Virus record (IMG/VR): IMGVR_UViG_3300046777_000773
Coordinates: 1 to 60,347 of that record
Reading direction: 5' to 3' (one strand)
Source: a virus
Length of the DNA: 60,347 bases
Shown here: piece after piece, positions 19,086-42,555 of the stretch
Position numbering within the stretch: the stretch's first letter is position 1
How the letters are laid out: every line of letters begins with the position of its first letter
Program-made: the position numbers and the translations under genes
Notes under the pieces: model-generated
Databases searched by the model: none
Seen by the model: the letters and a program-made list of their open reading frames with translations, nothing else
What the model was told of the DNA's origin: nothing

Positions 19086-19329
19086 ATCGTTTTGCGATGT
19101 TGGCTGCGGAGGCGGGTTGCTTTGAGAATTGCTTGCCCGCTTTCGTGGCTTTCTTTTTGGCAGCGGACGAAGCAGCATACGTACTAGCTGGCATAGCCTT
19201 GATCGCAGCTTCTGGAAGGTATCTCTCACCTGTAGCCTCCGGTCCCTGAGTTGACGGCTTACCAGACTTGGTTCGCCATTTCTGTTTTGTCCAATCTACT
19301 AGCGATTGTTGAGTTTTCTTAAGTGCCAT
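19078..19329 (-). CDS. C-terminal half of a split DUF5872-like basic protein
   Basis: An 83-residue basic protein. It has WTKQKWRTKSGKPSTQGPEA, TGERYLPEAAIKAM and a KKATKAGKQFSKQP tail, which I recognise as the second half of the DUF5872-type proteins of phages and giant viruses. The first half (GGKGGRPGQWSARKAAMLAK) is encoded at 19,761-19,943. The two are separated by an HNH endonuclease gene whose stop overlaps this start by 11 bases. The halves may still act together. A DNA- or virion-associated role is inferred from charge and location. Confidence 0.65.
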   Translation of the reverse strand: MALKKTQQSLVDWTKQKWRTKSGKPSTQGPEATGERYLPEAAIKAMPASTYAASSAAKKKATKAGKQFSKQPASAANIAKRFR

Positions 19330-19783
19330 CGCCGTAGTTTCCTTTTGTTTCTAGGTATTCAGCGGCCCTACGCAAGATTGTAGGACTGTCTTGAAGCATC
19401 CCTATGGCGCGATTGCATTTCTTGCATAGGATTCCTCTGAATTCCCCTGTCTTATGATTGTGATCAATCGCACTATCCATTTGGCTTATGGTTTCGTAGC
19501 AGACTAAACACTTACCCTCTTGAGCTTCATAAGCGGTTACAAATTCAGCGGGCGTAATGTTATACCTAGCACAGCGTTTAACTAATGTCCAAGCATCACG
19601 CCCGCGATATTCTTTAACGCGATCCTGATTATCGGCGCACCATTTTTTATGGGTCGAATAGTGGCAAGTTTTGCACCACGATTTAAGGAGGTGCTTCATG
19701 TTACCACCTCGTGAACGAAACTCCGTTAACGGCTTTTCGATTTCACATTTGGTGCATTGTTTAACTGCGGTAGCCGCCGCCAC
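19319..19783 (-). CDS. EndoVII-type HNH homing endonuclease (inserted)
   Basis: A 154-residue protein with an N-terminal CTKCEIEKPLTEF and CKTCHY zinc-knuckle pair. The endonuclease VII core follows: CLVCYE ... IDHNHKTGEFRGILCKKCN, then GMLQDSPTILRRAAEYLE. His/Asn catalytic residues and both CxxC zinc pairs are present, so it looks active. Its codons are visibly AT-richer than the neighbours. The gene overlaps the 3' end of one half and the 5' end of the other half of a DUF5872-like gene, the classic footprint of a free-standing homing endonuclease. The start is read as GTG. Confidence 0.75.
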   Translation of the reverse strand: MAAATAVKQCTKCEIEKPLTEFRSRGGNMKHLLKSWCKTCHYSTHKKWCADNQDRVKEYRGRDAWTLVKRCARYNITPAEFVTAYEAQEGKCLVCYETISQMDSAIDHNHKTGEFRGILCKKCNRAIGMLQDSPTILRRAAEYLETKGNYGDGT

Positions 19784-40992: not shown

Positions 40993-41190
40993 GTGGACAA
41001 AACCTATGATCGCTTCGACTTCGAGCAATCCATCATGCAGTGTTGGGGCGTAGTCGACGACCTCAAAGCTTTCCACAAAGCCAACGCCCCTCTCGACACC
41101 TACGAGGCTCTGGCCAAAGTCTACCAACAACATTTTGAACACCTCTGGGCTATCTTCGAATACCTTCTTGAAGAGGGCAAGTTGGTATGA
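40993..41190 (+). CDS. Small conserved phage protein
   Basis: A 65-residue protein from the GTG at 40,993, preceded by AGGAG. YDRFDFEQSIMQCWGVVDDL then YEALAKVYQQHFEHLWAIFE. This helical pattern is one I recall from several podoviruses, without known function. The next gene overlaps its stop by four bases. Confidence 0.6.
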   Translation: MDKTYDRFDFEQSIMQCWGVVDDLKAFHKANAPLDTYEALAKVYQQHFEHLWAIFEYLLEEGKLV

Positions 41191-41396
41191 GCGATTCCAT
41201 GGAACTGACCCATCAGGACCTCGTCGAAGCCTTTGACCGGGTTATACAGCAACTCAAGGTCATCGACAGCTCCAAAATCTTCACGACCCTTAACGTGGGC
41301 ATGTTCGACATCGAAGACGCCGTCCGGGTCCTAACCGGCTTCAAAGGCAAACTCATCGTCGACGCCCATACGAAAGGTATCCTCGAATGGAAGTAA
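41187..41396 (+). CDS. Small hypothetical protein upstream of thyX
   Basis: A 69-residue protein: SMELTHQDLVEAFDRVIQQL, TLNVGMFDIEDAVRVLTGFK and a final GILEWK. Its last codons (TGGAAGTAA) overlap an ATGGAAGTA that was the ancestral thyX start, now a remnant. It is therefore the original neighbour of thyX. Function not recognised. Confidence 0.55.
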   Translation: MSDSMELTHQDLVEAFDRVIQQLKVIDSSKIFTTLNVGMFDIEDAVRVLTGFKGKLIVDAHTKGILEWK

Positions 41397-41443
41397 CCTA
41401 CCTCAACCACATGGGCACCGACCTCTTGCAATTTACCATCTAA
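41387..41443 (+). pseudogene. Orphaned 5' end of thyX
   Basis: An 18-codon frame reading MEVTYLNHMGTDLLQFTI then stop. Its first 12 residues match the start of the intact ThyX (MEVVYLNHMGDD) at ten positions, while the DNA differs at many silent sites. It marks the original thyX start, displaced by the inserted HNH gene. The tail now doubles as the -35 region of the HNH promoter. Confidence 0.75.
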
Positions 41444-41454
41444 GGTGGTAAACT
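41426..41454 (+). promoter_or_regulatory. Promoter of the inserted HNH gene
   Basis: TTGCAA (41,426-41,431), a 17-bp spacer and TAAACT (41,449-41,454), followed by AAGGAGG and the ATG at 41,480. The inserted unit thus brings its own expression signals. Confidence 0.5.
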
Positions 41455-41479
41455 GTTCCTTAGTTATAAGGAGGTCTAT

Positions 41480-41926
41480 ATGATCTGTAAAGGTTGTCTG
41501 CAAGACAAACACGAAGAATCTTTTGTTTTGCGTAAGGATAGGTCAGGGCGGCGCCGTCCATATTGCAATGACTGCCGCAATAACGTAGAACGCGCCCGAT
41601 ACGAGAACCATAGACGGCTACAACCTTTTAAATTGCGTTGTAGTCGGGCACGGGCTAGGGCTAAGTTTTTAAAGGTTCCCTTTGACTTAACCCCGGCGTA
41701 TTTGGAAAGTATTTGGACAGGGCAGTGTCCTGTATTAAAGTGCCCAATCCATTGGAGTACTGACCGTAAAAATGAGTACGCGGCAGAGCTTGATAGGCAC
41801 GTTCCTAGCTTAGGATATGTTAAAGGTAACGTAACCTTTTTAGCTAGAAAGGCTAATAGACTGAAGAACAATTCTACTGTAGAAGAACTGACCAACCTTC
41901 TGGAATGGATGAAACAATGGAAGTAG
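41480..41926 (+). CDS. Homing-type HNH endonuclease inserted at the thyX start
   Basis: A 148-residue protein. The N-terminus has CKGCLQDKHEESF and YCNDCRNN (two CxxC, zinc). The C-terminal core CPVLKCPIHWST followed by AELDRHVPSLGYVKGNVTFL and ARKANRLKNN matches the phage HNH/endonuclease pattern in which D-R-x-x-P-S-x-GY-V-x-GNV replaces the canonical H-N-H spacing. It is clearly AT-richer than flanking genes. Its final codons overlap the functional thyX start. It may be an active homing enzyme; the exact catalytic residues need structural modelling. Confidence 0.7.
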   Translation: MICKGCLQDKHEESFVLRKDRSGRRRPYCNDCRNNVERARYENHRRLQPFKLRCSRARARAKFLKVPFDLTPAYLESIWTGQCPVLKCPIHWSTDRKNEYAAELDRHVPSLGYVKGNVTFLARKANRLKNNSTVEELTNLLEWMKQWK

Positions 41927-42555
41927 TGTATCTTAATCATATGGGTGATGACCGTATGGTCGTCAATGCGGCCCGTGTGTCCTTTGGCAAGCGCACCATG
42001 GAGTTCCGCCTGGGCAAGGACGATCGCCTCATTAAGTACTTGGCGCGTCACAACCATACGCTGCCCTTCGCCCATCCGCAAGTGCAGTTCCACTTCAAGG
42101 CGCCTCTGTTCGTGGCCCGGCAACTGGCCAAGCACCAAGTAGGCTTTGTGTGGTCCGAGATCAGCCGTCGCTATGTGAAGGACGAGCCCGAACTATACTG
42201 GCCCAATAAGTGGCGCAAGGCAGCGGCAGACATCAAGCAGGGCAGCAGCCAGGAGGAGTTCACAGATCCCTTCGGCTCGGCTCTGCGTGCCCATACGACG
42301 GCCCGTGCGCTGGTGTGGGACTATAGGCGTCTGGTGCAGGATGGCATGTGCCCCGAACAGGCCCGGATGATTTTGCCGCAAAATATGTACACTGAGTGGC
42401 ATTGGACGGGTTCCCTTTTGGGCTGGAGTCGTGTATGGAACCTCCGTGTCAAGTTTGATGCCCAGGCCGAGACAAGAGAGGTAGTAGAAATGATTGGTCC
42501 GATTATGGAGAAGCTATTCCCTTACAGTTGGAAATCATTAACCAACTCGGACTAG
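41917..42555 (+). CDS. thyX: Flavin-dependent thymidylate synthase
   Basis: A 212-residue ThyX that makes dTMP from dUMP using FAD, methylene-tetrahydrofolate and NADPH. ARLS-like VNAARVSFGKR (about 14-24) and VARQLAKHQVGFVWSEISRR (about 59-78) are present. The usual RHRx7S signature is altered to KHQ with one extra residue before SRRY, a variant I associate with phage ThyX. The start was set at 41,917 by comparison with the upstream remnant. The first 12 or so codons are AT-rich like the HNH gene, the rest GC-rich, so the 5' end was probably replaced during insertion. Confidence 0.85.
   Translation: MEVVYLNHMGDDRMVVNAARVSFGKRTMEFRLGKDDRLIKYLARHNHTLPFAHPQVQFHFKAPLFVARQLAKHQVGFVWSEISRRYVKDEPELYWPNKWRKAAADIKQGSSQEEFTDPFGSALRAHTTARALVWDYRRLVQDGMCPEQARMILPQNMYTEWHWTGSLLGWSRVWNLRVKFDAQAETREVVEMIGPIMEKLFPYSWKSLTNSD

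Follow-up and report, generated by a model that had tools for sequence, protein, structure and literature searches.

Directly upstream of thyX in the virus genome analysed here lies a gene for an endonuclease, and ahead of that gene a short frame repeats the first residues of ThyX. This layout raises the question of why the start of one gene is present twice, which of the two copies is the original and how the nuclease gene is connected with the duplication. The window (the whole stretch of DNA that was analysed) is a complete IMG/VR virus record of 60,347 bases. A preliminary description of the locus had proposed a homing-type insertion that carried a replacement thyX 5′ end and rebuilt the overlapping stop/start junction. 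Uninterrupted relatives support this proposal, with some refinements: the insertion point lies inside coding sequence, after codon ~13, and not at an intergenic junction, and the architecture is a recurring trait of the nuclease family. From the sequence comparisons reported below, the locus very probably harbours a mobile homing-endonuclease element that consists of a leader, an HNH/endonuclease VII-type nuclease and a replacement thyX 5′ end, and that inserts inside thyX after the MG-x-D-L codons.

The two thyX starts of the window

The features of the locus are listed in Table 1. The ATG of the orphan frame (41387-41389) lies inside the stop of the upstream gene, whose TAA overlaps this original thyX start, and the frame runs for 18 codons (MEVTYLNHMGTDLLQFTI) to a stop at 41441-41443. 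The true ThyX start reads MEVVYLNHMGDD... (MEVVYLNHMGDDRM...) and runs on into the remaining thyX. Both stop/start overlaps, that of the upstream gene with the first copy and that of the nuclease gene with the second, were found as previously described.

Table 1. Annotated features of the thyX locus in the window (positions of the whole stretch).
Feature	Position	Strand	Remarks
Resident upstream gene	41187..41396	+	69 aa; no family matches; ends GAATGGAAGTAA
Orphan original thyX 5′ end, codons 1-13 (MEVTYLNHMGTDL)	41387..41425	+	34/39 to L002 and L013
Insert start, read as tail LQFTI and stop on the orphan frame	41426..41443	+	Relatives instead continue TVVNAARVSF
Insert, 530 nt: leader, HNH gene and replacement thyX 5′ end	41426..41955	+	Junctions set by relatives
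9-bp hairpin TTTACCATC-TAA-GGTGGTAAA	41432..41452	+	Orphan stop codon in loop
6-bp hairpin TCCTTA-GTTA-TAAGGA	41457..41472	+	Covers HNH Shine-Dalgarno (AAGGAGG)
HNH/endonuclease-VII-type endonuclease, 148 aa	41480..41926	+	Ends CAATGGAAGTAG
Rebuilt overlap (ATGGAAGTAG): HNH stop within second thyX start	41917..41926	+	
Replacement thyX 5′ end, foreign, AT-rich	41917..41955	+	36/39 to L022; GC 38.5%
Predicted functional thyX, 212 aa	41917..42555	+	Pfam Thy1 PF02511 3e-40; relatives at about 70-86%

A ThyX scan of viral contigs yielded 26 loci, and the 22 closest ones with the thyX 5′ end covered were compared with the window. The 5′ end is uninterrupted in all 22 (about 70-86% protein identity), and eight of them (L002-L008, L022) keep the overlap ATGGAAGTAA between upstream gene and thyX; the first copy of the window is therefore the resident thyX start. 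Homologues of the upstream gene lie directly 5′ of intact thyX at 84% (L028, contig of L022) and 58% (L029, contig of L004). The gene now read from the second start is, by sequence, a hybrid of a replacement start and the resident 3′ portion, and its intact frame suggests that it is functional. In thyX DNA, the window shares only ~75% identity with its closest relatives that have an empty site, so that its breakpoints are less sharp than those of phage Belfort described below.

The two starts agree in 10 of 12 residues, the same count as reported before, and in 26 of 39 bases over 13 codons, with silent differences in five of the eight degenerate shared codons. Their alignment scores 55, and shuffling the upstream region 200 times gave at most 33, which excludes chance similarity. 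In agreement with the earlier remark that the downstream copy is AT-rich like the HNH gene, GC content is 38.5% in the replacement copy and 44.5% in the HNH gene, compared to 53.8% in the orphan, 56.7% in the rest of thyX and 55.8% in the genome; the 36 nt of thyX following the replacement end have 58.3%. The replacement copy shares an identical run of at most 35 nt with L022, followed by ~75% identity, although a run of this length has a codon-shuffle P of 0.016 only. The replacement segment is a diverged thyX allele of natural, L022-like type and need not be a new creation.

Recurrence and empty sites in other phages

In sequenced phages, the nuclease is most closely related to gp9 of Streptomyces phage Belfort and to gp24 of Targaryen, each of which is encoded directly 5′ of thyX and behind an unannotated orphan thyX start (...VLDKGYVRYIKHMGDDL, then V and a stop, in Belfort; MTKIDVLDQGYVRLVDHMGSDL, then G and a stop, in Targaryen). 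Environmental carriers with an orphan are L047, L048, L049 (plus three near-identical contigs), L054, L055, L215, L216 and L218; altogether, an orphan thyX start precedes the nuclease gene in ~ten phages, besides that of the window, that encode a member of this nuclease family. The orphans break mostly at MG-x-D-(L), a few codons earlier in L215, and continue in unrelated tails (V, G, YY or LGSLCYN before the stop). They were found at eight of nine distinct core-clade HNH loci and at one of 74 surveyed thyX loci without the nuclease (Fisher 2e-9); six other loci of the 74 reach the nominal shuffle threshold, but without the arrangement. Taken singly, the orphans of L047 and L048 are short or weak: that of L047 failed one shuffle test and beat the shuffles in two others, and that of L048 is recognized by position and frame. 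No orphan is visible in the more distant HNH relatives that adjoin thyX (L053, L058, L060, L064, L220, L223), where it has perhaps decayed.

In each of the eight carriers with inspected junctions, the end of the nuclease frame falls within the replacement thyX start, and HNH stop and thyX start overlap, besides in the window, in Belfort, Targaryen, L047, L048, L049, L054 and L055. A candidate older third thyX remnant before the Belfort HNH gene (ATGGGCAACGATTTG) is more simply explained as part of a stem. As a separate observation, L064 contains a second ThyX-like fragment (7-54; DAKLINYLAKHNHSTP) at the locus edge, ~2.3 kb upstream of the nuclease gene.

Compared with the window, the other carriers are 38-54% identical in ThyX and 42-61% in the HNH protein, while the closest thyX relatives of the window (81-86%) are without HNH. 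This pattern indicates horizontal gain of the nuclease.

Empty sites were found for three other lineages. At the thyX locus, SparkleGoddess corresponds to Belfort without the insert: the Belfort orphan matches it in 58/60 positions and the left flank in 591/600 (98.5%), while Belfort thyX matches in 39/60 positions before the junction and 399/400 after it (Fisher 2e-19). Targaryen compares in the same way with the empty phage Warpy (orphan 58/60, left flank 588/600 or 98%, thyX 43/60 before and 383/400 after the junction). For L049 and the empty L163, the values are 37/39 for the orphan, 26/39 for the second copy and 85% for the remaining thyX. In these alignments, the insert splits the resident thyX of Belfort, Targaryen and L049 with no detectable loss, and the 5′ end that it supplies is foreign. 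The best matches obtained in the empty-site search for L047 and L055 were too diverged for such a comparison.

The Targaryen replacement matches thyX of Paradiddles (L046), which is without the nuclease there, in 56/60 positions before the junction and 265/400 after it. L022 (3001-3047) is the counterpart of Paradiddles for the window, with a replacement-like thyX 5′ end and no nuclease. Alleles of this type may be either the source of replacement ends or scars after nuclease loss, in which case they would be possible resistance alleles.

Across eight pairs of orphan and replacement, 64 of 87 degenerate shared codons carry silent changes. The Gly wobble base of ATGGGN differs in 7/7 pairs and the Asp wobble base in 4/7, and GAC CTT in the orphan is often GAT TTG in the replacement. 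Such divergence would fit a target that is destroyed with the protein unchanged. Selection for recoding may have contributed, but a donor from another phage would look diverged too.

Nuclease, leader and variant loci

The nuclease of the window matches PHROG 3322 ('endonuclease', 1.5e-28) and PHROG 1035 ('endonuclease VII', 2e-21), which places it by sequence in the HNH/endonuclease VII class. The family alignment contains an N-terminal CxxC...CxxC pair and the stretch YLESIWT..CP...LDR..P..GYVKGNV...R.AN..K, with LDR..P..GYVKGNV...R.AN..K as conserved core. Pfam domains were detected neither in the HNH nor in the upstream gene, and a PDB profile search gave no matches. The AlphaFold (AF2) model of the 148-aa protein has a pLDDT of 92; its best PDB fold matches are weak (Hpy99I, E 0.02; PacI, E 0.03; large rmsd), and fold matches to predicted phage structures go down to 1.7e-10. 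The weak PDB matches might point to beta-beta-alpha metal enzymes, as PacI and Hpy99I. A GTDB genome scan found no HNH homologue; a scan of close relatives with the single HNH sequence found none either, and the family alignment was needed. The full ThyX N-terminus downstream and the lack of Rfam matches place the nuclease outside an intron or intein. Its presence is sporadic, at one site with empty alleles in close relatives. The window also encodes a second endonuclease VII-type protein (19319-19783, minus strand), whose gene is AT-rich (45.6% GC) and not closely related to that at the thyX locus.

The leader of the window folds with -18.9 kcal/mol versus -9.6 kcal/mol for shuffles (z -3.7). 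A stem over the ribosome-binding site has been reported in T-even homing endonuclease genes, mobE among them (PMC2988022), and by analogy to the T4/Aeh1 precedent, the hairpin at the Shine-Dalgarno sequence may control translation of the HNH gene. The leader hairpins are not conserved among carriers; folding was better than in shuffles in the window and Targaryen only. An element-borne sigma-70 promoter was considered and rejected for the window, as convincing candidates (10/12 matches) occur in Targaryen and L047 only.

Several loci carry variants of the arrangement. In two mirror cases, L057 (268-1275) and L219 (469-1342), a nuclease gene of the same family overlaps the 3′ end of thyX and is followed by an orphan thyX C-terminus (YWSGSLDAFASMC... 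and SGSLDAFASMC..., respectively). L253 (2354-2805) shows the scheme at a gene for a family A DNA polymerase (DNA_pol_A_exo1, 1.6e-16), where the nuclease continues in frame from the resident start MPEFIAPLKPLL and the intact gene begins with a diverged version, MPEFITPLKPLV.

LAGLIDADG genes are located at the thyX start, overlapping or adjoining it, in many phages of Streptomyces (L035-L037, L039-L041), including Kenrey, Gilson, Sushi23, Braelyn and Anedea, which makes the 5′ end of thyX a hotspot for two nuclease families. They share with the element an endonuclease gene overlapping or abutting the thyX start, and differ by having no orphan thyX start within 900 nt, except in L157. There (1218-1990), an orphan-like piece, KHMGSD followed by RDG and a stop, lies upstream of the LAGLIDADG gene before thyX; it is the only convincing one among the 74 loci and possibly reflects the same strategy used by a different nuclease family. 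Kenrey and Gilson have a small gene at the place expected for the beginning of thyX, and it is this gene whose start overlaps the upstream stop. A third kind of nuclease gene, endonuclease VII-like HNH, is located just 5′ of thyX in Daubenski (L038, 1341-1823), with no orphan.

Proposed mechanism, alternative explanations and known systems

A homing cycle of the following kind could account for the arrangement. In a co-infecting phage, the nuclease would cleave uninterrupted thyX at MGxDL, the putative target being intact thyX DNA of the L002 type around CACATGGG....GACC. Repair of the break would use the orphan as homology arm on the left and the 3′ part of thyX on the right, and would thereby copy the element into the recipient. 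The insertion leaves the resident 5′ end upstream as orphan, and ThyX would be made from the replacement start joined to the resident 3′ portion. Silent divergence would make the replacement immune to cleavage, preserve a working gene and reduce the risk that recombination between the copies removes the element.

The strongest competitor to such a homing element is illegitimate or unequal recombination between a donor with an intergenic HNH gene 5′ of thyX and a recipient inside thyX, leaving a partial duplication to which the nuclease is incidental. The second copy as a natural allele, L022-like in the window and close to Paradiddles in Targaryen, is what such an exchange would leave; the break at the same codons in ~ten unrelated carriers, the association of orphans with the HNH family and the otherwise undisturbed flanks make it unlikely. 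We consider it very unlikely that the resident thyX 5′ end was simply duplicated in tandem, then received the HNH gene and diverged by drift. Both copies do encode nearly the same peptide, but identity of the second copy to the empty phage is 65-72% before and 96-100% after the junction in Belfort and Targaryen, and this step identifies it as a foreign tract and not as a product of drift.

Two further explanations deserve hardly any credence. HNH genes often reside in introns and the insert does lie inside coding sequence, as would be expected of a group I intron or intein that is removed by splicing to connect the first copy with thyX. Yet Rfam detected no intron core, the HNH frame ends inside thyX, and the second copy restores the full N-terminus, which makes splicing of copy 1 to codon 14 unneeded. 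Just as improbable is an orphan that has nothing to do with the insertion and represents a conserved leader peptide or micro-gene, the latter a possibility already named in the preliminary description: the start codon is kept and the frame ends in a hairpin loop, but in all relatives thyX starts at this ATG, and the tails in other carriers are unrelated.

Beyond the homing element of the window, we see an even chance that natural 'home-and-rescue' elements form a general class in phages (at thyX 5′, thyX 3′ and DNA polymerase 5′), in which silent divergence of the replacement end would be under selection against self-cleavage and recombination loss and the orphan would be a homology arm. Short unannotated frames ahead of thyX are accounted for by the arrangement, which may also be the reason for the Paradiddles/L022 alleles. 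It suggests that a selfish nuclease can live in a needed gene without intron or intein by bringing a replacement for the part it breaks.

The closest precedent is provided by the mORFs in atp6, atp9, cox2 and nad3 of fungal mitochondria (Allomyces, Rhizopus, Mortierella, Glomus), which carry replacement C-termini; the copies differ mostly at synonymous sites, and the native end is retained and matches an uninvaded relative (PMC3630166). The thyX element likewise combines a free endonuclease gene in coding sequence with a foreign replacement end and a displaced native end that matches uninvaded relatives. The mORFs are C-terminal, of LAGLIDADG or GIY-YIG type and mitochondrial (PMC3630166), whereas the thyX element is N-terminal, of HNH/EndoVII type, in a bacteriophage and with overlapping frames; the window replaces a 5′ end, and C-terminal replacement is seen in the mirror cases. 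A strategy previously known for a few fungal mitochondrial genes recurs in bacterial viruses. We found no phage report of the arrangement in the literature searched, in which subscription journals were little covered.

With the T-even free-standing endonucleases SegB, SegF, SegG and MobE, the element shares a position adjoining a nucleotide-metabolism gene, a ribosome-binding-site hairpin and the expected co-conversion of flanks (PMC2988022). As reviewed, those enzymes have a cut site separate from the insertion, co-converted flanks and no replacement gene end (PMC2988022). Unlike them, the thyX element is located inside its target coding sequence and brings a replacement gene end.

Phages offer donors, empty sites, nucleases and crosses (Belfort/SparkleGoddess and Targaryen/Warpy, which infect laboratory Streptomyces), so that it becomes directly testable in nature how silent recoding affects the persistence of a drive and the formation of resistance alleles. 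Home-and-rescue drives carry a recoded rescue. The synthetic drive HomeR (PMC7968924) has in common with the thyX element a nuclease aimed at an important gene, whereas the latter is natural, resides in phages, would spread by recombination during co-infection and has a diverged natural allele as its rescue.
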